Source: a virus. From it: DNA of 21,635 nt. The stretch covers positions 1 to 21,635 of the IMG/VR virus record IMGVR_UViG_3300047550_002242; one strand, 5' to 3'. The notes below the pieces were generated by a model. That model saw nothing but the letters and a program-made list of their open reading frames with translations. It did no database searches and was not told the origin of the DNA. Position numbers and translations under genes: made by a program. Position 1 is the stretch's first letter. The number at the start of each line of letters is the position of its first letter. Shown one piece after another: positions 4,424 to 21,635 of the stretch.

Positions 4424-5578
4424 ATGGCAGATTTTTCTTTAACTACGCTCTTCGTAGTTCCAGTAGGGCAATCAAGCTTCCCTAGCTCTGGTTCTACGCA
4501 AGATTTGAGTGCTGGCCAAGTAGGTATTTTCTCAAATGCTTATGCAGCTACAAACACTCCTGGTAACTTCCCTTATTTCTACGTTGCTCAAGGTAGAACT
4601 AACACCTATCTTCAAGGCTCTAAAAGGTCTGATAAGATTTCTGGTGCTAGTAACACTGGAAGTAACCACAATGTTACTGAATGGTATAAAGTGAGTGGTT
4701 GTGCTACTCCTGCAAACCAGGTAACAGATGTATCAGGTTGGACTGTAAAGTGTGGCGATGTTGTAACTCTTACACTTCGTGCTCACTCTAGCTACATTGA
4801 TACATTGTATTTCAACGGTTTCACTCGCAGTGTAACTGTTCAAGCTCCTTGTTGTGATTGCGGTGGTGATCCTTGTACAGATGTTGATGTTCCAGCTTTG
4901 ATTGACGAGTTCATTCTTAAGCTTGAGCAAGAAGCTCCTGGCATCAACCCAGACAACATTAGCTTCAACACATTCTATCAATTCCAAAGGATTGGTAATG
5001 ATGCAAATGCTATCCTCCGTATTTCTGGTAAGCCTCTTACTGCTTACGGTCAGCCTTGTGATGTTGCTGCATTCCCTTACGAATATGACAGAATGTACTT
5101 CCGTACTTTCGTGTATTCTGGTCCTGCAACCACTGCTGACTTCATTGTAGCAGATGCTTGTAACATTGTAGCTGAGGCAGTTATCACTCAACGTGCTTCT
5201 TATGCTTCTGGTCAATCTCCTGAGATCAAGCAACTTGAGAAAAACTACTACAGCTATCAAGCAGGTTACCTGAAGCACCTCTACAGAATGGCTGGTTATA
5301 ACGAGAACTTTGAATCTTGGGTTTCTGATGGTACTACCTATGACACCTACTATGTTAAGTTCAACGAGTATGACAAAGCAGCTTACTCTTGGGGTGACTA
5401 CATCAAAGAAGATAGCATGGTGATTATTGCTGTTCCTCAAGCAGCAAGTGCTACTCTTCAGGGCATATTGGAAGATGCATTGGGAAGTGTAAGTGATGAT
5501 AACACATGTATCACAACTACATCTACCACCACAACTGTATGGCCTACAACTTCTACAACTACCACTCTTGTTCCTTAA
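4424..5578 (+). CDS. Abundant virion protein with Cys-rich hinge and Thr-rich C-terminus
   Basis: A 384-residue protein not recognised with certainty. The N-terminal domain (about 1-140) begins MADFSLTTLFVVPVG and contains LSAGQVGIF and YFYVAQGR. A Cys cluster CCDCGGDPC (about 143-151) links it to a second domain with EIKQLEKNYYSYQAGYLKHL and DYIKEDSMVIIAVP. The last ~20 residues are Thr/Ser-rich (TTTSTTTTVWPTTSTTTTLV). Codon choice resembles the capsid gene more than its neighbours (many AAC, TTC, TAC, AAG and CGT codons), which suggests high expression and a high-copy structural part, such as a decoration, tube or head-fibre protein. It starts after an A-rich leader (aaacaaaataaaa) and is followed by a terminator-like hairpin, so it probably ends a transcription unit. 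Function beyond 'structural' is inference. Confidence 0.55.
   Translation: MADFSLTTLFVVPVGQSSFPSSGSTQDLSAGQVGIFSNAYAATNTPGNFPYFYVAQGRTNTYLQGSKRSDKISGASNTGSNHNVTEWYKVSGCATPANQVTDVSGWTVKCGDVVTLTLRAHSSYIDTLYFNGFTRSVTVQAPCCDCGGDPCTDVDVPALIDEFILKLEQEAPGINPDNISFNTFYQFQRIGNDANAILRISGKPLTAYGQPCDVAAFPYEYDRMYFRTFVYSGPATTADFIVADACNIVAEAVITQRASYASGQSPEIKQLEKNYYSYQAGYLKHLYRMAGYNENFESWVSDGTTYDTYYVKFNEYDKAAYSWGDYIKEDSMVIIAVPQAASATLQGILEDALGSVSDDNTCITTTSTTTTVWPTTSTTTTLVP
5513..5566 (+). repeat. Thr-codon tract at a protein C-terminus
   Basis: Runs of ACN codons encode TTT-S-TTTT, then VWP, then TT-S-TTTT, at residues 364-381 of the 384-residue virion protein. Similar tracts occur in three other genes of this window, always at the end of a protein or between domains. 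Confidence 0.85.
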
Positions 5579-7749: not shown

Positions 7750-8385
7750 ATGGCTTGTTACCCAGGTACACCATGTAATCCTGTACCAGTAAGTGCTGTC
7801 TATCCAAAGAAATGTAATAATGGTTGGTTTGCTGGTTATCCCATCCAAACCAATCTCATTTGCTACAATGGACCAAACTTACCAAATACAGGTGTAAATA
7901 CAGGCAATAACATGAACTTGGTTCTAGAGAAGATAGATCTATATCTCACTCCTGAAACATTGGTTCAAACTCTTCTTCAGACAATTCAGTCAAATCCTTC
8001 TCTTAATGTAAGTTTTTGTACATTGGTGAATGCTTGTGTTGAAAATACAACCACTACTACAACAACTAGTAGTTCTACAACCACTACCACCACAACCACT
8101 GCAGCTCCTACAACAACTACCACTACAACTACTGTTGGACCATATGTTTATTTTATGAAATATAGTGCTGTTAGTGGTGCAGCTGCTTGTTCAGATCCCA
8201 CTACAGTTGTAATTCTATCTGATTCACCAACACTTGACTTAGGAGTTGGATTATGGATAAATAGTTCATTAACAACCTATGCTGCACCAGGTTTCTATTG
8301 TATAGCTGATGGTTGTCCTAATGCCTATAATATACAATATGTAGAGTTTGTAGGTACAGGAATAGCTAATATAACAAACTGTTAA
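7750..8385 (+). CDS. Modular fibre/adhesin with poly-Thr linker
   Basis: A 211-residue three-part protein. The N-terminal part (about 1-98) begins MACYPGTPCNP and contains LICYNGPNLPNTGVNTGNNM, which aligns with the module at residues 18-37 of the collar fibre just upstream; I take it as a shared attachment or trimerisation domain. Residues 100-128 are almost all Thr with Ser and AAP breaks. The C-terminal domain (about 131-211) is small and beta-like, with LGVGLWINSSLTTYAAPGFY and several Cys (ACSDP, YCIADGC, ITNC). The build suggests an exposed stalk with a swappable tip, perhaps glycosylated on Thr. Target and function are unknown. Two hairpins follow immediately, so it likely ends the fibre operon. 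Confidence 0.6.
   Translation: MACYPGTPCNPVPVSAVYPKKCNNGWFAGYPIQTNLICYNGPNLPNTGVNTGNNMNLVLEKIDLYLTPETLVQTLLQTIQSNPSLNVSFCTLVNACVENTTTTTTTSSSTTTTTTTTAAPTTTTTTTTVGPYVYFMKYSAVSGAAACSDPTTVVILSDSPTLDLGVGLWINSSLTTYAAPGFYCIADGCPNAYNIQYVEFVGTGIANITNC
8047..8133 (+). repeat. Poly-Thr codon tract between two fibre domains
   Basis: 29 codons, nearly all ACN, encode Thr runs broken by SSS and AAP (residues 100-128 of the fibre). All four Thr codons are mixed, so the tract is repetitive in protein more strictly than in DNA. Confidence 0.9.
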
Positions 8386-8552: not shown

Positions 8553-9803
8553 ATGTTGGGAAATCAGCATCTCTTAGAACAACTTCAGCAGATGCTGAAT
8601 TGGAAGAAAAGTAAGAAGTATTACGCAGAAAAACTAGGAATTACGGAAGAAGAGGTGAATGATTTATTGAGAGAACTTAGAGGAGCAAGTAGTATTAATG
8701 ATGAGGCTGAGGCAGCAAGCTATATAGAGGAACTAGAAGAAGCTATAATTAGGTTTCAGGAGGATGTGGTTAAAGGAACAGGAGAGGTGGTATTCAATTC
8801 TCCTGAGGAAATAAGATCTCTTGATGAGCTTATATCAAAGTGTAAAATTGACACAAACAAGTGGGAAGTAACTAAATATGTTCAGAACTATTGGGGAAAC
8901 TCTGATCAACCACACTGGCAGGTAAAAGCTTGGCTTGGTAAGAAATCTACTGAGCAAGAGTTTCAAGACTCATTTATTGGCTTCTTGGAAAACTACAAGC
9001 CTCTTTCTCCAAGTGTAATGAGTCCTAAATATGTATCAGAAAAACCCAATGGATGTCTTATTATAAACAAACAAGACTCCCATTTAAACAAGTTGGATGT
9101 TGATGGATTCAATAATGTAGAAGATAGATTTGGTGCATTTGTAGAAAAGATTGAAATCATTACAAATCAAGCCCAATTGTCTAACAATCTTGAAGAGATT
9201 TATTATATAATTGGATCTGATGAATTTAACAGTGAATTCACTGGAACTACAACAAAAGGAACTCCCCAGCAAAACATCATGCAATATCATGAGTCGTTTT
9301 CTAGGATTTGTGACCATGAGGTGAGTGTGATAAATCTTCTTTTGCAAAAGTGTGAGTTCTTAAATGTCATATATGTTCCAGGTAATCATGATGAGTTTGT
9401 GGGCTGGCATATGGTGAAATGGTTAAAAACCTATTTCAGAAACATAGGTAGAATTAATATTGATGATTCTCCAAACTATAGAAAGTATGTAAGTTATGGT
9501 TCTACAGCCATGATGTTTAATCATGGTGATGCCATAAAGCCTGCTAAACTTGCTGCCATATTCCCAATGGAATATAAAGAAGAATGGTCCTGGCATGATA
9601 ACTTTTACATATTCACTGGTGATAAACACCATGAGTTGAGTCAAGATTTTAACGGAATTAAATTTTATCAAATCCCTGCATTTTCAAATGCTAAAAGTTC
9701 CTGGGATGAAAAGAATGGATACACCACTTCAAAAGCTGAAGTGACAGCATTCTTGATAGATTTCAATGAAGGAATGACAAATATATTTAAACAGTATTTA
9801 TAA
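8553..9803 (+). CDS. Calcineurin-like metallophosphoesterase with N-terminal HTH-like region
   Basis: A 416-residue enzyme. The N-terminal ~45 residues (KKSKKYYAEKLGITEEEVND) look like a helix-turn-helix. The C-terminal ~250 residues carry the metal-binding motifs of calcineurin-type phosphoesterases in order: D-x-H at 175-177 (KQDSHLNK), GSDEFN at 221-226 in place of the usual GDxxN, GNHDE at 277-281, NHGD at 323-326 and GDKHH at 356-360 for the GHxH site. Members hydrolyse phosphoesters in DNA, RNA, nucleotides or proteins with two metal ions; the substrate here is unknown, though the HTH suggests DNA. It is the only enzyme-like gene between fibre and ring genes, is first after a terminator and promoter, and overlaps the next gene (TAATG at 9801-9805). 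Confidence 0.8.
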   Translation: MLGNQHLLEQLQQMLNWKKSKKYYAEKLGITEEEVNDLLRELRGASSINDEAEAASYIEELEEAIIRFQEDVVKGTGEVVFNSPEEIRSLDELISKCKIDTNKWEVTKYVQNYWGNSDQPHWQVKAWLGKKSTEQEFQDSFIGFLENYKPLSPSVMSPKYVSEKPNGCLIINKQDSHLNKLDVDGFNNVEDRFGAFVEKIEIITNQAQLSNNLEEIYYIIGSDEFNSEFTGTTTKGTPQQNIMQYHESFSRICDHEVSVINLLLQKCEFLNVIYVPGNHDEFVGWHMVKWLKTYFRNIGRINIDDSPNYRKYVSYGSTAMMFNHGDAIKPAKLAAIFPMEYKEEWSWHDNFYIFTGDKHHELSQDFNGIKFYQIPAFSNAKSSWDEKNGYTTSKAEVTAFLIDFNEGMTNIFKQYL

Positions 9804-11009: not shown

Positions 11010-11984
11010 ATGTCATACTATTATAAGTATAATTTTACAACACCTGAAATTGTCTATTCCACTGTAAAGGAAGAGCTTAAAAGCTATTTTGATACAGGGG
11101 CAATAGATGATTTGATGTTTCCCACCTATCTAGACAAATGTCTTAGAAAACTGGGAAGATCTTCTTATGTCATCACTGAAAGTCCATTATATATAGAGGA
11201 TTTTGAAGCAAGGCTTCCAGATAACTTCTATGCTGTAAGAGAAGCATGGGCAGTTGCAGAAGTTCCTCAACTTCCTTATCAATCAGCTAACTCATTCTAT
11301 TCTCAAGCAGCAGATGTAACAACAATACAAGTGACTCCAGTTGTATCTGGAGGACCAGCTTGTACTAATCTAGATTGTACAAATGATGATTGTGATGGAT
11401 CGTGTATGCCTGAGATTATACAAGCAGTGTATAAAACAAATAATCAAATAGCTAGGTCATATACACTATCACATCTTTTGAAACCAGGTAATATATCTGC
11501 AAGAAGGAATTGTGATGTGAGTTATACAGATGCGTGGAATTTTAATGGTGGAGGTGCAGGACTAGGTGGATCCACTCCAGGATCATCTAGTATAGATTCA
11601 TTTGATATCAGAGACAATAAGTTTGTTACAAATTTCAGAAATGGAATTGTTCATCTTGTATTTTACGCTACAGAATATGATGCTGGAGGGAATCAAATGA
11701 TTCCAGACAACTTTCGTATTAGAGAATACATTGAAGCATTTATAAAATACAAAGTGTTTGAAACACTTTCTAACCAAATAAATGATGAAACCTTTGACCA
11801 AATTCAAAAGAAACTAGCCTACTACAAGCAACTTTCTGAGGAAGCATTCATCATGGCAGACATTGAGATTAAGAAGCAAGATGTTTATGCTAAACAAAGA
11901 AGAATCATTCAAGATTTGAATAGATTCAACATGTACGAATTACCCAATAGAGTAAGCAGATATGGCTGGAGAAGGAACAACTAA
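11010..11984 (+). CDS. P22 gp4-like tail stabilisation / ring protein
   Basis: A 324-residue protein. The N-terminal helices (TTPEIVYSTVKEELKSYFDT, later YLDKCLRKLG) and the C-terminal long helix (FDQIQKKLAYYKQLSEEAFI) have the layout of P22 gp4-type tail accessory factors that plug the portal and join it to the tail. The middle carries an unusual Cys cluster (CTNLDCTNDDCDGSC, 118-132) and a Gly/Ser loop (NFNGGGAGLGGSTPGSSS, 177-194), both probably surface insertions. A strand pair (KFVTNFRNGIVHLVFYATEY) precedes the final helices. The family assignment comes from fold-like features and from its place between the IHF-like gene and the muzzle gene. Its last 23 nt overlap the start of the muzzle gene. 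Confidence 0.65.
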   Translation: MSYYYKYNFTTPEIVYSTVKEELKSYFDTGAIDDLMFPTYLDKCLRKLGRSSYVITESPLYIEDFEARLPDNFYAVREAWAVAEVPQLPYQSANSFYSQAADVTTIQVTPVVSGGPACTNLDCTNDDCDGSCMPEIIQAVYKTNNQIARSYTLSHLLKPGNISARRNCDVSYTDAWNFNGGGAGLGGSTPGSSSIDSFDIRDNKFVTNFRNGIVHLVFYATEYDAGGNQMIPDNFRIREYIEAFIKYKVFETLSNQINDETFDQIQKKLAYYKQLSEEAFIMADIEIKKQDVYAKQRRIIQDLNRFNMYELPNRVSRYGWRRNN

Positions 11985-14900
11985 TATTATACAGGAGCAA
12001 AATGTTGCTAGAACAGGCTTAAACCTTGACCAAACCGTTAATCAGGTTCAGAAGGGACAGCTCACCTATGCACTCAATGCTGCTGTAGAAAACTTTGACT
12101 CAAATTCTGTTAACTATCAGAATGAGCCAGGTAACGAGTTTTGTCTAGAATTTCCTCAAGGATATCATCTTATTGGCACACATCTTATCAATGAGCAAAA
12201 CAAACATATATTCTTTCTTACAAATCCTGAAACGGGAGCTTCTGAGATTGGATATATGGACAATAATGATTGTATATACCGTGTATACGTTAGTGGTAAT
12301 TGTTTAAACTTTAATATAAACAATCCAATACACAAGGTGGTGCATAAGATAACAAATTGCACTACAGAAATATATTGGACAGATGGTCTCAATCCCAGGC
12401 GTTATATGGACTTAAATAATCTTCCATATAAGATTAAGCCTGGTACAGACGTTTGTGACAATCAAACAATTCCAGAACTAGATTGCAATAAACTTAAAAT
12501 ACAACCCAACTTTTCCATACCTGAACTTGAGATTTCTGGTATTGCAAGTGGTGGAGGTCTTACAGCTGGTACATATCAATTTGCTATTCAGTATTGTGAT
12601 GTTGCAGGAGATGCTTATACATCTTATTATTCTGTAACAAATCCTACACCTATTGCAGATACAGCAATTACAACACCAGATTTTAACTACCCTGTTGGAA
12701 AGTCTATTTTGTTGAATATTAGTAATATAGACACAACTGGTTATTTTAGATATTATAATGTTGCTGTTATTAAGACAGTGAATGGAATCACGTCTGTTGA
12801 ACTTGTTGGAACATATTTTATTGATGACTCTACAAACACAATCACTTACAGTGGTCAAAACGAGGCTCAAATAAGACTCACTGTTGATGATATATTTGAG
12901 AAGTTTCCATATTACGAAATTGCTCAAGACCTGACAGCTGTTCAAGATGTTCTTGTTTGGGACAATCTTACATCTATAGATAGGATCAATTATCAAAAGA
13001 TTGCTAGTCAGATTGACCTTAAATGGCAAACGTACAAGCTTCCTGCAAATGAAGACTACTCAGATGCGCTAAATGCTACAAACCTGAGAGGATACATGAG
13101 GGATGAAGTGTATGCATTTGAGATAGTTTTTCTACTTAGAAACGGTAAACAAACTGATGGATTTCATATTCCAGGTAGAGAACTTTCATACACTGAGCTT
13201 ATCCAACCTGATGTTCCAAACACCAATCCTGATTTTATAGGAGATGGTACAAGTGCTCCTTATTGGAAAATATATAATACAGCTTCCGTCACAGGAGATG
13301 CTACTGGTCCAAATATTGGTAATGCCACTCCATATAAGTATGGTGAGTTTGCTTATTGGGAATCCACTGAGGTATATCCCTGTAATGATGATGTTTGGGG
13401 AACTTTGGCAAATCAACCTATCAGACACCATAAGTTTCCTGACGTTCTTGTAAGTCCTATATTTGAGAGTGGTACACCAGTTATACAAACTGGTGGTACG
13501 TACGCAGGTCTGGTGATGGAAGATAGAGCGATATTTCCAATTGGAGTTAGAGTGGATGCCCAACAAGTTGAATATTTGATAACAACATCTAATCTAACCC
13601 AAGATCAAAGAGATGATATCATAGGATTTAAAATTGTTCGTGGTAACAGATCTACCAATCAGTCAATTGTAGCAAAGGGTATTCTCAGGAACGTTGGTGA
13701 ATATGATAGAGAAGGAACAACTTACTACTTCCCCAACTACCCATATAATGATCTTCGTACTGATCCTTTCTTGTTAGAGAAGAATAATGCTTACAACCAG
13801 GAATGTATCACATACGTATTTACATGTGCTACGGATGGTTTATACGAATACACTGATTGTTTCACTAACTCTGTGAACAGTAAAACAATGGAGGCAGGGA
13901 AAGAATATACAGAATGTTCCCTAACCATACCTGTAGCAATATCTGGAACATTTACAGGTACTCCTAATGCAGTTCAATATGACACATATTTCATAAAGTG
14001 TGACGGTATTATAGTGAAGTTTGGATATATAGATCCTATAACATTAGACACTGAGTATATTACACTAATCACTGCTCAGTCTAGAACAATACAAGTTGAG
14101 GCTGGAACAGTACCGAATGTAGCATTTAGAATTGGTGGGTATACATTAAGATTGGTTTCTGAAAGCAGTGATGGTCCAAATGAATACTGTTATCCTGATA
14201 AACTTGAAGCATTTAATACAGATGCATCTAAATACAGACAAGTATTTAACTCACCAGAAACATCGTTCGGCAGACCTTTTCTTGGAGATATTCTAAAACT
14301 TGAAAGTGCAATATATGGCACAGGTAATGCTCACTTTGTTCAGGTAGAAGATAATGCTAACTACAAACTTTTAACCAAAGAAGCTCAACAAGATGCGCTT
14401 GCTTCTGCTGAAGGAATTGCAAATATAACATCAACGTTTGATGCTTCTGCAATGTTTGCTGCATATCAGTCTTATTTACAAATCTACATAAATGGAATAA
14501 CTAGGAGAAACTATGCATACTCCTACAATTCTATTGCAAAATATGGATATTCAGCACCAATAGACAATGGATTAGGTGTTAAACAAAGAACACTTGACAT
14601 TGCTCAATATCTTGTCCCTGGAGTTCAATCTGCTGGTGACAATCATAATATCAACAATTTTCAAAGAGAATCTTCTGTATATTTAAAAACAATAGAAGAT
14701 AGAGATAGTCTATCTGTTTCTCCTCTACCGTTTCCAAGTGACACTCCTAATCTTTTAACTAGTACTGGTGTTAGTGTTATTGAAGATAAGTCTAGATATA
14801 TTGCATCAAATGCTCCAACTTCAACTGGTTGTTATCAGCCTGAGAAACTATTTGATATATCAACTGTATCCTACTATGGATCATTAAAAAATATATTTGT

Positions 14901-16584
14901 TAACCAGTGGGGTCAGATATATTCATATGAAACAATTGATACAGGATTCCAAAGAGCTATTGATTCTACAGATGATCCAATTGTCACTGTGTTCGGTGGA
15001 GATACATTTATTAACAAGTTTTCGTTTAAAACAAAACTTCCATTCTTTATAGATAATAGAGTGGGGGCTCCTGATGATAGTGATATATTCTATGATGAGA
15101 TAGGTAACATAGCCTACCCAGCATATTGGCACTCAGCTAGATCCATACTGTCTGATTATGTTGTTGATGAAGGTGGTGGAGATGAAAGAACTTTAAAAAA
15201 TATTATATCAATCAAGGCTCATAACTTTGATTGTCCAAACAGTCAATTACCTGCTCCTCCAGATCCTAACCCTGGAAGAACATATTATGATGGTAAATTT
15301 TATTTATTTGCCTATGGTATTCCTACATTCTATTGTGAGTCGACAGTGAATGTTGATCTTAGGCAAGCATATAATAATAAAGAAGGTGACTTCTACCCAC
15401 ACGTGAGTACGGGTATTCCTGACCAATGGTTTCAGGAAAGTTTTGTAACCATTGCTCAAGACAACACTTATTATTACAATGGTACATTCTCAAAACAAAA
15501 CACTGAGAACTTCTTCTCACATCTACCAATAGATTGGAAAGAACAGCTCTGTTATACTAATTTCCCATTCAGGGCAATTTATTCTGACAGACAACAGAGC
15601 TTTACAGATAATAGAATAAACAGTTGGTTAATTTACAGACCTATCAGTTTCTTTGATTTCCCACAAAACTACGGTAAACTTACCTCTCTTGATGGAATCC
15701 AGAACAGAGCTGTACTTGCTAGATTTGAAAACAAATCATTGTTATACAATACATTGTTGACAATTGATACTAGTAATCCTCAAGCTGCTTATTTAGGAAA
15801 TGACACACTATTTAAAAGTTCTCCTCCAATTGACTTTGCAGAAACAGATCTTGGATTTGTAGGAAGTCAAAACAAGATGTTACTTAAAATACCTCAGGGG
15901 CAAGTTACTATAGATGCTAAAAGAGGTCAGGTCTTCTTGGTTGTAGGGAATAGTGTAAAAGATTTGTCAGGATTTGACTCAGGATTGAATAGGTTCTTTA
16001 CAGATCATCTGGCATTTGAAATACTCAGATATTTTCCAAATGTCCCTACGGACAACCACTTTAATGCTGTAGGTTTACATGGAGTGTATGATAGTAAGTA
16101 TGACAGAGTGATTATTAGTAAGTTGGATTATATTCCTCTTAATACTAATGTTAAATATGATGCCACTGAAAATAAGTTTTATGTAAATAAAACATATGGC
16201 ACATCTATTATAAAGGAATATGTAGAACTTACAGATGGGGATTATTTCTGCAACAAGTCTTGGACTTTGTCTTATAATTTCAACACTGATAGTTGGGTGA
16301 GCTTTCATAGCTACATTCCCAACTGGTATATTGCTGAAAACAATTTCTTCTATTCTGGTATAAATGGAGGTTGTGATTTGGAAGCAATCGCTGCTCAAGA
16401 AATTGAATGCGCACCAGATTGTGCTTTAGAAGGAACTGTCGATGTATTCAATTGTGCACTAGAAGGTGAGGTGTATGTACCTGATTGTGAGCTGGTGGGC
16501 GAAGTGTACATACCTAGTTGTGAACTAGAAGGAACTGTAGAAGTTAATACCACCACAACAACTACAACAACAATACTTGGATAA
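11962..16584 (+). CDS. Tail stabilisation / muzzle-type protein, C-terminally modified
   Basis: A 1540-residue protein, the large tail component that crAss-like phages encode after the gp4-like gene. Conserved-looking N-terminal blocks are KGQLTYALNAAVENFDSNS (31-49), FCLEFPQGYHLIG (60-72), HIFFLTNPETGASEIGY (82-98) and IYWTDGLNPRRYMDLNNLPY (137-156). AGTYQFAIQYCD (202-213) starts a beta-rich region, and the body ends near WVSFHSYIPNWYIAENNFFY (about 1442-1461). It then changes character: four 11-residue repeats starting with Cys, then eight Thr and ILG. The body should form the tail barrel below the rings. The conserved C-terminal piece that I associate with this family appears instead in the gene at 17236-18105, so this gene looks split. 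It starts 23 nt inside the previous gene. Confidence 0.75.
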   Translation: MAGEGTTNIIQEQNVARTGLNLDQTVNQVQKGQLTYALNAAVENFDSNSVNYQNEPGNEFCLEFPQGYHLIGTHLINEQNKHIFFLTNPETGASEIGYMDNNDCIYRVYVSGNCLNFNINNPIHKVVHKITNCTTEIYWTDGLNPRRYMDLNNLPYKIKPGTDVCDNQTIPELDCNKLKIQPNFSIPELEISGIASGGGLTAGTYQFAIQYCDVAGDAYTSYYSVTNPTPIADTAITTPDFNYPVGKSILLNISNIDTTGYFRYYNVAVIKTVNGITSVELVGTYFIDDSTNTITYSGQNEAQIRLTVDDIFEKFPYYEIAQDLTAVQDVLVWDNLTSIDRINYQKIASQIDLKWQTYKLPANEDYSDALNATNLRGYMRDEVYAFEIVFLLRNGKQTDGFHIPGRELSYTELIQPDVPNTNPDFIGDGTSAPYWKIYNTASVTGDATGPNIGNATPYKYGEFAYWESTEVYPCNDDVWGTLANQPIRHHKFPDVLVSPIFESGTPVIQTGGTYAGLVMEDRAIFPIGVRVDAQQVEYLITTSNLTQDQRDDIIGFKIVRGNRSTNQSIVAKGILRNVGEYDREGTTYYFPNYPYNDLRTDPFLLEKNNAYNQECITYVFTCATDGLYEYTDCFTNSVNSKTMEAGKEYTECSLTIPVAISGTFTGTPNAVQYDTYFIKCDGIIVKFGYIDPITLDTEYITLITAQSRTIQVEAGTVPNVAFRIGGYTLRLVSESSDGPNEYCYPDKLEAFNTDASKYRQVFNSPETSFGRPFLGDILKLESAIYGTGNAHFVQVEDNANYKLLTKEAQQDALASAEGIANITSTFDASAMFAAYQSYLQIYINGITRRNYAYSYNSIAKYGYSAPIDNGLGVKQRTLDIAQYLVPGVQSAGDNHNINNFQRESSVYLKTIEDRDSLSVSPLPFPSDTPNLLTSTGVSVIEDKSRYIASNAPTSTGCYQPEKLFDISTVSYYGSLKNIFVNQWGQIYSYETIDTGFQRAIDSTDDPIVTVFGGDTFINKFSFKTKLPFFIDNRVGAPDDSDIFYDEIGNIAYPAYWHSARSILSDYVVDEGGGDERTLKNIISIKAHNFDCPNSQLPAPPDPNPGRTYYDGKFYLFAYGIPTFYCESTVNVDLRQAYNNKEGDFYPHVSTGIPDQWFQESFVTIAQDNTYYYNGTFSKQNTENFFSHLPIDWKEQLCYTNFPFRAIYSDRQQSFTDNRINSWLIYRPISFFDFPQNYGKLTSLDGIQNRAVLARFENKSLLYNTLLTIDTSNPQAAYLGNDTLFKSSPPIDFAETDLGFVGSQNKMLLKIPQGQVTIDAKRGQVFLVVGNSVKDLSGFDSGLNRFFTDHLAFEILRYFPNVPTDNHFNAVGLHGVYDSKYDRVIISKLDYIPLNTNVKYDATENKFYVNKTYGTSIIKEYVELTDGDYFCNKSWTLSYNFNTDSWVSFHSYIPNWYIAENNFFYSGINGGCDLEAIAAQEIECAPDCALEGTVDVFNCALEGEVYVPDCELVGEVYIPSCELEGTVEVNTTTTTTTTILG
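16420..16548 (+). repeat. Four tandem 11-residue Cys-LEG repeats
   Basis: Residues 1487-1529 read CALEGTVDVFN, CALEGEVYVPD, CELVGEVYIPS and CELEGTVEVN (the last one residue short). The 33-nt units at 16420, 16453, 16486 and 16519 are diverged in DNA. Each has Cys at position 1, Gly at 5 and alternating Val, which would suit short beta strands. Confidence 0.9.
16549..16572 (+). repeat. Thr-codon tract at the end of the muzzle gene
   Basis: Eight ACN codons encode residues 1530-1537, three residues before the stop. The tract directly follows the Cys-LEG repeats. Confidence 0.85.
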
Positions 16585-16603
16585 ATTTTTAAAATAAACA
16601 AAA

Positions 16604-17233
16604 ATGGCACAAACAGTATTAATAACATTAACAACCGCTGGAGCTGATACAGGTCCTTTCAACTTGTATTCAGATGTAGACGGTTATGTTACACCATTTG
16701 AAACAGGTGTGAGTAAATCTGCTTTGTTGGCAGGATATACATCTACAAGTGTTCCAGATGCAGCAACAGTTTTAAGAGTTAAGTCGGCAAGTACGCTTTG
16801 CACAAATTATATTAATTTGTCATTAACTACTACCACTACAACTACTAGTACTAGTAGCACTACTACAACAACTACCACATCTCAGGATTTGGTTGATGTA
16901 GTTTTGTATGCTAGACATGATCCAGGAGCAAGCACGTTCCCAATTTTAGCATTTGCTTATTCTGTAGATGGTGGTTCAAGCTGGACAGCTATAGGATCAT
17001 CTTTTACAGATACAAGTTGTACACAGAGAGCTATAGTTACCATTCAAAGAAACACAAGCTTGTCTATTAAGATTACAGAAGATGGTAACACAAGTAATGT
17101 ATGGCAGAGTGCAAGAGATACATCAGGTTGTCCTGCTTTTTCAGCAGCAGCTTGTACATGGCCTGCTGTAACTAGCAACAACACAATCACTTATTATTTC
17201 ACTGTAAATGGTGATGACCAAGGAACTTGCTGA
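16604..17233 (+). CDS. Modular beta protein with poly-Thr linker
   Basis: A 209-residue protein in three parts. Residues 1-74 form a small beta-like domain (TVLITLTTAGADTGPFNLYS, later VSKSALLAG and LCTNYINLS) that aligns with residues 1-~72 of the next protein. Residues 75-93 are Thr/Ser. Residues ~95-209 form a second beta-like domain (LVDVVLYARHDPGASTFPIL, then AFAYSVDGGSSW and IVTIQRNTSLSIKI) with paired Cys near the end (SGCPAF, AACTW, QGTC). It has the look of a decoration or adhesin subunit attached to the tail. It sits 19 nt after the muzzle gene behind an A-rich leader (aaaataaacaaaa), and its stop lies 2 nt before the next ATG. No specific function is recognised. Confidence 0.6.
   Translation: MAQTVLITLTTAGADTGPFNLYSDVDGYVTPFETGVSKSALLAGYTSTSVPDAATVLRVKSASTLCTNYINLSLTTTTTTTSTSSTTTTTTTSQDLVDVVLYARHDPGASTFPILAFAYSVDGGSSWTAIGSSFTDTSCTQRAIVTIQRNTSLSIKITEDGNTSNVWQSARDTSGCPAFSAAACTWPAVTSNNTITYYFTVNGDDQGTC
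16826..16882 (+). repeat. Poly-Thr codon tract between two domains
   Basis: 19 codons encode Thr runs broken by Ser (residues 75-93). The DNA includes ACTAGTACTAGTAGC; a related ACTAGTAGT word occurs in the tract near 8065. Confidence 0.9.
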
Positions 17234-17235
17234 TA

Positions 17236-18105
17236 ATGAGTAAAACAATTATCATAAAATTAAAAAAGGCTGGAAGTAGACTAAGCACGTTCTCCATATC
17301 TGACGGTGTGGGGAATGTGCTTGCTACTAATGTGCCTAAGAGTAGTTTAATTTCAGGACTAGCACTGAGTGTAGATGATTTTGTCAATGTGGTTGTTTTA
17401 TCATCTACAGGAACTAATTGTTGTTCTAAAACATGGAACATCCCTGTTACAGAGATTTGTTTAACGGATCTTGCAGCAATTCAATATACAGAATCAAATA
17501 CATCATCTCTCTGGAGACATCTAACAGATCCTGTAATATATAACAAGTTTTATGGATGTGTTCAGCCTTACATTATTGAATATCCTTTTGCATATCAATA
17601 TTATGACGAGATTCTTCAGAATGTAAAAGATTACACAAAAGCATATAAATATCTTCCTACGGATGACGGAGTATTTAACGATAATAGGAGAATAGCAATC
17701 AACGAATATTTCAACAAAGCTGTATTGTACAATGATCAACAAAGCACAGGCATTCTTGAGCTTGTTGCTAAACCAATGAACAACCTAAAGGAATACTTGA
17801 AGTATCCTGTATACAACACTGATAGTAAGACAATTACGTACACTAAATCAGATAACTTCTATCAATATAACACGTTCTGGGGATTGGTAAAAGATAAATC
17901 CCTACCTTTGTTTACAAAGAGTTGTGAGTCAATGTCCATAGACAAGATTGTAAATCAAGCTAATATGGACTATGGAAAGAGATCGTTTAAGAAGGAACCT
18001 CTTAGAGCTAAGGATTTGAAGGTGAGACACATTCTTGATAACTCAAGTGAAACTCATCTTGTTTCTCAATTCATTATTACACCAAGTCAAATCTCTTACA
18101 AGTAA
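17236..18105 (+). CDS. Muzzle-type C-terminal domain fused to a duplicated beta module
   Basis: The ATG at 17236, 2 nt after the preceding stop, is preferred over a TTG at 17227 inside that gene, giving 289 residues. Residues 1-~72 (MSKTIIIKLKKAG, NVPKSSLISG, NIPVTEI) are a diverged copy of the first domain of the upstream protein. The remainder is a different, well-conserved-looking domain: SSLWRHLTDPVIYNKFYGC, PYIIEYPFAYQYYDEILQNV, YFNKAVLYNDQQSTGILELV, SDNFYQYNTFWGLVKDKSLP and the end LKVRHILDN ... LVSQFIITPSQISYK. I recall this domain as the C-terminal part of the large crAss-like tail stabilisation protein, which here would be a separate polypeptide; that link is from memory and should be tested. 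Its stop overlaps the next start (TAATG, 18103-18107). Confidence 0.6.
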   Translation: MSKTIIIKLKKAGSRLSTFSISDGVGNVLATNVPKSSLISGLALSVDDFVNVVVLSSTGTNCCSKTWNIPVTEICLTDLAAIQYTESNTSSLWRHLTDPVIYNKFYGCVQPYIIEYPFAYQYYDEILQNVKDYTKAYKYLPTDDGVFNDNRRIAINEYFNKAVLYNDQQSTGILELVAKPMNNLKEYLKYPVYNTDSKTITYTKSDNFYQYNTFWGLVKDKSLPLFTKSCESMSIDKIVNQANMDYGKRSFKKEPLRAKDLKVRHILDNSSETHLVSQFIITPSQISYK

Positions 18106-21100
18106 TGGCAAAGAGTAAAATCAGTAAAGCTCAGGTTGGAGTAAAGTCTGGTAAAACAGAACAAGAGGTTAGATCGGCCATCTTAAAGAAAGCTGATGAA
18201 ATTTTCAAAAGTGGTAAGAAACCTTATAAGGTTCCAGATGAAATAACACAGGGATCTTACCTTACTGGTAGAAAGGTATGTATTCAAGGTGTTTGTGGAA
18301 TTCTCTCAGATGCAGGATTTATACCTGAAGACTATTACACAAATACAAAATTTGCAGAAAAAGCAAATGAACTTGGTTTTGGCTATCCTATTACAGATAT
18401 AAATCGTTTAAAACCAGGAGACGTATTTCAACATTTCACTGAAAAGAATGAGCAAGGAAACTACTATCCCACCCATGGTGAAATATTTAAAGGATGGAAT
18501 AAAGAAGGTGAGGCTGAGTTTTATGACTATTATGACTATTACAACTATCCGCTTGGAATGAGTGAGGGTATTAGAACTTATTCTAAGGATGAGTTGATGG
18601 AGAGATTGAAAAGAAGAGCAGAGAAGGATAATAGTGGAAAACAAGCACAGTTCTTTAGTATAGCAGGAAACTTTCCAACCAAGAAAAGTTTCCCATACAA
18701 TCTTCCAGAAGGAGAACTTCAACAGTATTTTGACAAAACCCACGCCTCTAAAGTTAGATATGCTGCCCCACAATCTAATATAGATGTAAACTCCCCACTG
18801 TACACTTTATCTGGAGAAGATGTTAGACAGGGTACAAAGAACGTATTGGTAGATTCATTTAATGATTCACAACTAGATAGTCAACTAAAGAAAAACTTAA
18901 AGATTACAGATCAAGATTTACAGAGGATAAAACCACTTGTTTATGGAATAGTGGGTCAAGAAACTCAATTCAATAGTCCTAAAAGTGGATTGGGTAATCT
19001 TAAATATACACTTGAAAACCTTTTCCAACTTGAAGGGACATCTTTAGGTCCTGGACAGATAAAGTTGAATTCAATATCTAAAGACACCAGAAAGAAGTTC
19101 AATATAAACAAAAACAAAGACCTGCTTGATCCAAAAAACACGTATATCGGATTAGTTGATATATTAAGTAAAGCAGCAAACATAACAGATAAACATATCA
19201 CTCCTGAGAGTCACCCAGAGCTTGTAGATAAAGATAGATATGAAAGAGCCCTATATTTTGTAAACTCTCCTGGAAAAGTTAGAAAAACAGATAAACAACT
19301 CTCAGAGGATGTAATGAAGAAGTCTCCCTGGTGGAATGATTTTTCTGAAAGAAAAATGGAAAGCAACATCCGTAAAGCAAAAAATGCACCACTACGCATG
19401 GATGCTACATCCTATCCAGGAAAGGTTGTAAGTAAATCTGGTGAACTAGAAAAAGACATTAATTTTGAGGATGTTGGAGTTCTTCCAGAGGTTAGTGTCA
19501 CAGCACCAGCTAAGAAACAAAAGAATGGCGGATGGCTTGATAAATATCAAGACGGTGGGGAATACCTAGGCACAACAAACAAAGGGTTTGATTATAATGG
19601 TGCATGGGGTGGTCCTTCTATGCAAAATGGCGGACTGACATTCCTTGAACCAACAAGTAGAAAGTTACCAAAAGGACATGTTATTCCAAAGATTGATCCT
19701 AGTACAGAATTAGCAATTTCTGTAGGTGGGGAAGATGGAGAACCAGCTTATTTAATTCCATCTTTTAAGTATGGTAAATATTTAACAGATAAAGACGCTA
19801 AAGCTGAGTTTAGAAAAACAGGAGAACATCTTGGTGGTCCTTTCAAAACGTGGCAAGAAGCTGATGAATGGGAAAGAACAGTGAGACATCCGTATGTAGA
19901 GAAAGGACAAAATATTCCTACACCTTTTAGGAGATGGGGAAAAGACTTTGCAATGGGCGGTTCTCTTTCTGGTCCTACAGGAATGATGTACGCACGCACA
20001 CAGAGTCCTGCTCCTAGCAATGGCCCATATGCTAAGAAGACGTTACCTAGTGCACAGAATGGCGCAGAGATGAATTACTACCAACAAGGACTAGATTGGA
20101 AACCTAGGAATATTAGCAGGGATGGAAGTGAGATACCACAAGCTCAGCCTGGTAAAATTATACCTAAGTGGCAACAAAGACTTAAAGAGGAAGCAGCAAA
20201 GCTTGATGATCCTTTGTCTACCTTTCAACTTATGAAGAAAGGATATTCAAAAAAAGATGCACAAACTATACAAAATGCTGTAAAAAAAGAACAACCTGTT
20301 ATACAAACGCCTAAAGGTAAACAGCTTAGTGAAGAAGAAATTCGTAGGAAAAATAAACAATATGCTGAACAGTACGGTAGGCATTATAATGAAAAGACTG
20401 GTGCTGTTGAAGCTCCTTATTCTAAATCACTTGATCGTCTTAATGAAAGTATGTTGAATGCCGCAAATTATGCATTCAATGTTGTGCCAAAATTAGTTCA
20501 AAGTACATATAAACCAAACTATACAGCAATTGATGCGCTCAAAGGAAAACCAAATGACGCATCTCTTGTTGAGGATATTATTACTGATCCTACAGCATTG
20601 GCAAGTGGTCTTTTAAAATTTGGATTAAAAGGAGGACTAGGTAAAGGATTGTTAAGTTCTACAATACTGCCTTTTTATAAAAGCATACCACGCCAGGGTT
20701 CTGATGCTGCCAGACAATCTTTTTATTCAAACTTGGATCAGATAAAATCATTACTCACTTCACAATCAGCAAAAGATGCTTTTGGAAGAGTGAGTGATGA
20801 TATCAATAGTTTACCAATTCTGTCATCAATTGATCCAAGTTATTCAGCAGCACTTGCAGACCCTAATCTTCCTGTAAGAGCTCTAGATAAATATGGTAGT
20901 GCTATGATTTCTATAAATCCTGCAGATAATGCACTAACTCCTGAGCAGGTGAAATACTTAGATAATCTAGGAAGTCTTTATACAGATTATAGAAGAATTA
21001 ACAAATGGGACACAGATATAAAAGATAGATTACAGTTCATAGTTGAGAATTCAAAAAACATATCACCAAGAGACATATTACCACTTCTGCATGCAGAGAA

Positions 21101-21635
21101 TCCCACCACTGGACAAATGAACACTTTCTTAAAAAATCTTTATGAGAGCTATGGTGGTCAGGCAGTTAATAATCCTATGGCAGAGTACACTGCTGCCACA
21201 GATCTACTTGGTCTTGCTGATACATACGAGAACAGGTATGCTCCATTATCTGGAAAAATAAAAGCTGGTGTAACAGAGTTGTCAAAAGTTTCTGATGCTG
21301 TGAGACCACAGGTTATTATAGATGATCCTTATTTTGATGCAGCAAGAGGAAATAATGATTATGCAAAGGAAGCAATCCACCTACTTGAAAGAGGATCATA
21401 TCAAACTGTTCCAACGCAACCAGAGAGACTTAAAAACATGCGTTCAGCAGGAAAAACAGTTATTGAGACAGTAAATAATGCATTTAGTGATCCTATGAAT
21501 AGAGGAAGAACTATTGTTGGTGCACACAGTTTGAGTACAGACAGCTATCCTTTAACACTAAGTCTATTTTCACGAAACAAAGACAAGTTTGATTTTATAC
21601 CAATACATGAAGGAACTCAAGATGCAATTTATCCT
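18105..21635 (+). CDS. Giant virion protein with Cys-peptidase-like and lytic transglycosylase-like domains (3' partial)
   Basis: The frame from the ATG at 18105 has no stop to the window end: 1177 codons, continuing beyond. Residues ~50-140 resemble a CHAP/NlpC-type peptidase: C59 or C64 in KVCIQGVCGILSDAG, LKPGDVFQH (102-110) and H124 in YPTHGEIFKGW. Residues ~262-350 resemble a lytic transglycosylase: IVGQETQFN with E286 as candidate acid, SLGPGQIKLNS (313-323) and LLDPKNTYIGL. Residues ~470-680 are Gly/Asn-rich (GGWLDKYQDGGEY, MQNGG, AMGGSLSGPTGMMYART, SAQNGAEM) with an inserted segment RKTGEHLGGPFKTWQEADEW (570-589). The rest is helical and unrecognised. Known relatives travel in the virion and open the cell wall at infection; here that is inference. 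It starts on the muzzle-domain stop. Confidence 0.7.
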   Translation, partial: MAKSKISKAQVGVKSGKTEQEVRSAILKKADEIFKSGKKPYKVPDEITQGSYLTGRKVCIQGVCGILSDAGFIPEDYYTNTKFAEKANELGFGYPITDINRLKPGDVFQHFTEKNEQGNYYPTHGEIFKGWNKEGEAEFYDYYDYYNYPLGMSEGIRTYSKDELMERLKRRAEKDNSGKQAQFFSIAGNFPTKKSFPYNLPEGELQQYFDKTHASKVRYAAPQSNIDVNSPLYTLSGEDVRQGTKNVLVDSFNDSQLDSQLKKNLKITDQDLQRIKPLVYGIVGQETQFNSPKSGLGNLKYTLENLFQLEGTSLGPGQIKLNSISKDTRKKFNINKNKDLLDPKNTYIGLVDILSKAANITDKHITPESHPELVDKDRYERALYFVNSPGKVRKTDKQLSEDVMKKSPWWNDFSERKMESNIRKAKNAPLRMDATSYPGKVVSKSGELEKDINFEDVGVLPEVSVTAPAKKQKNGGWLDKYQDGGEYLGTTNKGFDYNGAWGGPSMQNGGLTFLEPTSRKLPKGHVIPKIDPSTELAISVGGEDGEPAYLIPSFKYGKYLTDKDAKAEFRKTGEHLGGPFKTWQEADEWERTVRHPYVEKGQNIPTPFRRWGKDFAMGGSLSGPTGMMYARTQSPAPSNGPYAKKTLPSAQNGAEMNYYQQGLDWKPRNISRDGSEIPQAQPGKIIPKWQQRLKEEAAKLDDPLSTFQLMKKGYSKKDAQTIQNAVKKEQPVIQTPKGKQLSEEEIRRKNKQYAEQYGRHYNEKTGAVEAPYSKSLDRLNESMLNAANYAFNVVPKLVQSTYKPNYTAIDALKGKPNDASLVEDIITDPTALASGLLKFGLKGGLGKGLLSSTILPFYKSIPRQGSDAARQSFYSNLDQIKSLLTSQSAKDAFGRVSDDINSLPILSSIDPSYSAALADPNLPVRALDKYGSAMISINPADNALTPEQVKYLDNLGSLYTDYRRINKWDTDIKDRLQFIVENSKNISPRDILPLLHAENPTTGQMNTFLKNLYESYGGQAVNNPMAEYTAATDLLGLADTYENRYAPLSGKIKAGVTELSKVSDAVRPQVIIDDPYFDAARGNNDYAKEAIHLLERGSYQTVPTQPERLKNMRSAGKTVIETVNNAFSDPMNRGRTIVGAHSLSTDSYPLTLSLFSRNKDKFDFIPIHEGTQDAIYP

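Follow-up and report, generated by a model that had tools for sequence, protein, structure and literature searches.

The DNA analysed here (the window, 21,635 nucleotides in full) is a 21.6-kb virus record from a crAss-like phage. In a Pfam search its structural genes follow the order ring protein 2 (PF25702), ring protein 1 (PF24228) and muzzle (PF25731), the last two standing as gp43 and gp44 do in crAss001. The muzzle match (124 bits, against a cut-off of 27 bits) falls on a 1540-aa protein, chain A, which is followed by a middle gene, P2, and by the gene for a second protein, chain B:

11010–11984, + strand: ring protein 1 gene (PF24228 CrAss_Ring_1, E 8.6e-11), directly adjoined by the muzzle gene
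11962–16584, + strand: chain A (P0001), 1540 aa, muzzle without its C-terminal ~200 residues (PF25731 crAss_MUZ, 6.3e-36)
16357–16581, + strand: chain A C-terminal tail past the break, 75 aa, with GINGGC, four Cys repeats and poly-Thr; the fused homologues lack it
16372–16374, + strand: Cys1471 of chain A, the Cys of GxNxxC at the break, from the alignment of split relatives
16604–17233, + strand: middle gene P2 (P0002), 209 aa, a 74-aa module (MODN family), Thr/Ser linker and C-terminal decoration domain
16883–17230, + strand: P2 decoration domain, with Pfam matches to BNR_4 and BT_3657-like_N (7e-4 and 3e-3) under the curated cut-offs, and kin in L011, L010 and L064
17236–18105, + strand: chain B gene (P0003), 289 aa from ATG, comprising module P3N and muzzle C-terminal region P3C
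17236–17502, + strand: P3N, a module of ~89 aa with an invariant Cys63, paralogous to the N-terminus of P2 (AF2 pLDDT mostly 70–90)
17503–18102, + strand: P3C, ~200 aa, muzzle C-terminal end, equivalent to aa 1461–1654 of 1654 in a Leptolyngbya phage protein

The initial annotation, made from the sequence alone, had placed the three ORFs and their features at these positions, and had described a 1540-aa protein ending in repeats and poly-Thr, with a module-plus-Thr-linker gene between the two muzzle parts. All of this is confirmed: the four ~11-aa Cys repeats near the chain A end form a TRF array (16450–16532, period 33) and are followed at the terminus by NTTTTTTTTILG, and P2 has the module, linker and domain listed above. 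The 3' end of the chain B gene is adjoined by an ORF of at least 1177 aa (18105–21635), in the position of the crAss001 cargo gene gp45, in which peptidase-like and lytic-transglycosylase-like stretches can be discerned by eye and Pfam finds no match. Among the structural genes, immediately upstream of ring protein 2, is a 416-aa ORF (8553–9803) with a GNHDEF motif, metallophosphoesterase-like by eye.

Single-gene homologues and the position of the break

Chain B has no Pfam match of its own and is assigned to the muzzle through phrog_15100 and through fused homologues. Along phrog_15100 (1783 positions), the best match of chain A is at 11–418 and that of chain B at 1587–1781 (E 2e-14). In the Leptolyngbya phage Lbo-JY46, a single 1654-aa ORF (XAI97387.1) aligns at 30–1455 with chain A 36–1467 in one BLAST alignment, and at 1461–1654 with chain B 90–289, at about 31% identity. 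The core and P3C are likewise contained in single ORFs in the Flavobacterium phages FpV4 and Fpv1 and in csAssE-Sib, in Cellulophaga phi4:1, which is the weakest case (E 0.002 for the chain B part), and in MT837925, where one open ORF runs over both parts. Altogether, five annotated phages and one partial record contain a P0001-like core and a P0003-like C-terminus 0–8 residues apart in one ORF, and thus the sequence from chain A residue ~1466 to chain B residue ~90 is extra. The nearest annotated phages are ~30% identical to the split clade. Lbo-JY46 differs from the window in being fused with few junction residues and in lacking the tail, the middle gene and P3N.

The proposal of the initial annotation that the large muzzle gene is split into separate polypeptides is supported by these homologues, each covering both parts, and the densely conserved residues 90–289 of the protein encoded at 17236–18105 correspond to the missing muzzle C-terminus. 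A domain of this type that is always separate, which would have argued against the proposal, was not seen, 77 of 217 classifiable loci being fused. Judged by homology, the two-gene arrangement is a split crassvirus muzzle, and a wider phenomenon than was first guessed. Among the annotated phages, neither P0002 nor, in a DNA-level search, the region 16604–18300 was found; no IMG/VR match was confirmed when the Leptolyngbya junction alone served as query, and chain B was not found in GTDB genome contigs, which therefore provide no host link.

The junction aligns, through the fused profile, to FYAFK-DGK-MWEQF near residue 1236 of PhicrAss001 gp44, the homology between P3C and gp44 being remote and alignable only through that profile. 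In gp44 the IG1 domain spans residues 163–292 and the IG2/crass block residues 318–1021 (PMC10172136). From these boundaries, the junction would lie outside both, and thus in the propeller/ring-joining part. The fold was examined in a fused relative, L219 (aa 1091–1645), for which an AF2 model (27 sequences) has pLDDT mostly 70–92 past local residue 200. The best PDB matches of this model by Foldseek are the crAss001 muzzle chains 7qol_P (E 1.5e-13) and 7qok_A (1.5e-12), followed by nozzle/tail proteins of SU10, Pan3, A4 and VP1, so that the C-terminal region of L219 has the muzzle/nozzle propeller fold in a single-chain model. The junction KVGIG (local residues 352–356) falls between predicted strands 348–352 and 356–359; the model thus has the break in a short turn that links two strands of this nozzle-like C-terminal region. 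When chain B is modelled alone (56 sequences), P3N folds well and P3C has poor confidence, and Foldseek finds no significant match for this chain B model. The poor confidence of P3C could reflect a need for chain A, or a shallow alignment, the chain B and L219 alignments differing in diversity.

Split and fused muzzles in IMG/VR

Scanning IMG/VR with chain B gave 409 relatives, and in all of the best 80 of these that were kept, the chain B domain is a separate ORF with the same module at its head. Two further scans started from fused seeds yielded more loci, resulting in 140 split and 77 fused among 217 classifiable loci, some contigs being counted twice; after removal of repeats, there remain 101 window-type split, 57 fused and 11 second-type split sequences. 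In a tree of the core block and P3C, all window-type splits form one clade, with L152, L232, L178, L190 and L163 as the nearest fused outgroups. The fused L219 is nested within this clade next to split L167 (100/100), and a topology keeping the split sequences together without L219 is rejected (p-AU 0.008). The simplest reading of the tree is one fused-to-split gain in the window lineage followed by one apparent re-fusion, the latter based on a single 56-kb contig, in which P3N is lost and one module gene is kept elsewhere. In L147 (4501–10704) and L191 (5554–11136) the muzzle ORF is broken inside the core block, probably by assembly or sequencing errors.

The first ~80 aa of P3N are paralogous to the P2 N-terminal module (E 6e-5), a relationship that the initial annotation had missed, and the two are members of a single family in which one Cys is nearly invariant (100% and 97%). 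The nine window-type genomes or large fragments examined each have two or three copies of the module, and L219 has one; module genes occur in 10/10 window-clade records tested and 0/10 fused outgroups, a distribution that would fit capture of the 5' end of a module gene when the split arose.

Chain A tails are 30–808 aa in length in the 79 measured loci of the window lineage (the longest is in L051, 6548–8971), with Thr/Ser runs in 78 of them. The chain B gene starts -4 to +29 nt after chain A in 55/79; the other 24 have intervening sequence, nearly always a module-bearing gene. Among close relatives, the core (73–93% identity) and P3C (79–91%) are conserved and the P2 decoration is unrelated (25–32%), except in L011 (88%). 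The same decoration domain also occurs at 66% identity in L064 and in L010; in the window, as in L011 and L064, a P2-type gene carries it, and in L010 the tail of chain A does, showing that decorations move between carriers. The suggestion in the initial annotation of a swappable decoration at the break is therefore upheld by a conserved core and C-terminal chain, mostly unrelated decorations, and the change of carrier in L010. Most decorations have no Pfam match, the BNR_4 match of P2 being below its cut-off; among 53 tails scanned, one matched DUF5122 (beta-propeller, 2e-46). The idea that the Cys-repeat tags are docking sites for module proteins was rejected, tag number being uncorrelated with module-gene number (rho -0.15, p 0.26); the correlation of tag number with the presence of a gene between the chains is weakly positive without correction for kinship (rho 0.36).

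A second type of split is found in a phi4:1-like lineage (L098, L099, L101–L105, L108, L110, L113–L115), in which chain A stops one loop earlier than in the window type, and in chain B the entire hairpin follows a Cys-rich flank, which is ~47–91 aa long in most cases and 363 aa in L098. The L098 chain B (12807–15191, 794 aa) itself contains repeated Cys motifs and, ahead of the hairpin, a large additional domain. Fused relatives (L093, L094, L095, L097, L100, L111) contain ~300–550 aa between the core block and P3C, a decoration inserted in the loop where the second-type splits fall, and several are Cys-rich at both insert edges. Monophyly of the eight non-redundant second-type splits is rejected (p-AU 1e-96), so gains and/or losses were repeated. 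The arrangement suggests that in the phi4:1-like lineage the decoration was inserted first and the gene was split afterwards.

Evidence for two translation products and their probable assembly

Muzzles of this family, which form a hexamer at the tail tip with a gate loop, are usually, if not by definition, single continuous polypeptides; in the window there are two ORFs with their own starts and stops. Chain A ends in TAA in 95/100 window-type and 11/11 second-type sequences, and chain B starts with ATG in 97/100, in frames that are random relative to chain A (36/33/31, n=100). The dN/dS of P3C (0.065–0.089) is like that of the core (0.075), indicating strong purifying selection, and that of P3N is 0.21–0.42. 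No Rfam intron family reaches the gathering threshold in the window, L098, L101, L108 or L110, and no Pfam intein family matches any of the 53 chain A tails and 56 chain B proteins scanned. From the stops, the random frame, the ATG starts, the dN/dS values and the lack of introns and inteins, it is very likely that chains A and B are translated separately.

We consider it probable that a crassvirus muzzle gene became two genes whose products co-assemble into one muzzle subunit, with the break as an outward site for exchangeable decorations. Chain A would run from the N-terminal part through the Ig/crass region and over most of the returning propeller, and chain B would supply the last ~200 residues (P3C) behind the new ~89-aa module (P3N). 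Translated separately from neighbouring cistrons, the chains would most likely co-fold, two strands pairing across the break. Decorations would be attached through poly-Thr linkers to the chain A tail, or would sit on module-bearing proteins whose genes lie between those of the two chains or nearby; in either place they would be displayed outward and might bind receptors or surface sugars. Invariant Cys residues on either side of the break may staple the chains.

An unlikely alternative to this co-assembly, though one deserving some weight, is that the middle protein and chain B both dock on the tail as independent accessory or fibre-type proteins, P3C having left the muzzle fold and chain A closing the propeller alone. 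The equal constraint on P3C and core argues against this, as do the short distance from chain A to P3C in the loci that were read and the re-emergence of a fused form inside the split clade; the kinship of P3N to a module of separate decoration proteins, and the AF2 result for chain B alone, would be expected from it. It is very improbable that only the gene is broken and that RNA splicing, protein trans-splicing, frameshifting or read-through rejoins one muzzle chain. In favour of it, homologues have the flanking parts joined without a seam, and recoding of stop codons, the muzzle gene included, is reported for a zeta crAss-like phage (PMC12386605). Self-splicing is rejected because no group I/II intron RNA lies between the parts by Rfam, in the window and four other split loci, and P3N, being conserved and in frame, is a module of the protein and no intron end; a split intein with trans-splicing is rejected because the free ends lack intein domains in the 53 tails and 56 chain B proteins scanned; and frameshifting or read-through is rejected because the chain B frame is random, with its own ATG, and the stops are mostly TAA. 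An assembly or annotation artefact or a decaying pseudogene, conceivable for metagenomic contigs, a few of which (L147, L191) have broken muzzle ORFs, is refuted by ~100 distinct split sequences from many samples with conserved length and start and dN/dS well below 1, and can be practically dismissed.

Cysteines at the break and comparison with known muzzles

A chain A Cys is present within 7 residues of the break (GxNxxC) in 56/56 non-redundant split sequences, and none is found in the fused turns of L219, L163, L178, L190, L152 and L232. A disulfide staple between the chains is a reasonable guess from this pattern. In the window lineage, Cys1471 could pair with P3N Cys63, or modules could pair with each other; for the phi4:1-like lineage, the candidates would be the Cys-rich flanks, with 7–10% Cys in the first 70 tail residues vs 0.3–1.6% in the core. 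Most insert-bearing fused relatives already have Cys-rich edges around the decoration, which may have made a later split tolerable. More broadly, and tentatively, crassviruses may have repeatedly made the muzzle propeller a two-chain, disulfide-stapled structure, turning an inner loop into a free end for open-ended decoration, by a split that would be reversible; we regard this as possible but rather less likely than otherwise.

The closest characterized protein, PhicrAss001 gp44 (PF25731; PDB 7QOK/7QOL), belongs to the same family, has the same place after ring protein 1, and gives the best fold match to the C-terminal region of the fused relative, but is one 1371-aa chain, whereas the window has a separate C-terminal gene and a new N-terminal module. 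Bayfield et al. described the muzzle as a single chain whose crass and IG2 regions contain insertions, surface-region insertions being a known source of muzzle length variation (PMC10172136). Cellulophaga phi4:1 gp042 and its relatives (L093–L116) resemble the window in having a decorated muzzle that is split in some members, but the decoration or split is at the neighbouring upstream loop, and chain B is a hairpin behind a Cys-rich flank with no P3N. The T7 gp12-type nozzle (also in SU10, P22, VP1 and GP4) shares the propeller fold at the tail tip (PMC10172136) but lacks the crass domain, and a split form of it was not found in the literature searched. The word ‘split’ is absent from the main text of PMC11054128 and PMC12386605, and a review (PMC10136315) applies it only to gene modules. 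A split muzzle was not found described in the open-access papers searched, and prior mention may exist elsewhere.

The muzzle, which has been described as one large chain, acts as gatekeeper in virions that rank with the most abundant of the human gut and are also common in other places. A conserved break at a site of decoration exchange, gained at neighbouring loops in separate lineages and with one apparent reversal, provides a model for surface variation of a constrained tail tip, and predicts a two-chain, possibly disulfide-linked nozzle. For annotation, full-length muzzle models miss the separate C-terminal gene of split phages. Poly-Thr runs also occur in two more structural-region proteins of the window (7750–8385 and 4424–5578); in the former, a domain behind the linker follows the same decoration logic with a different N-terminus.
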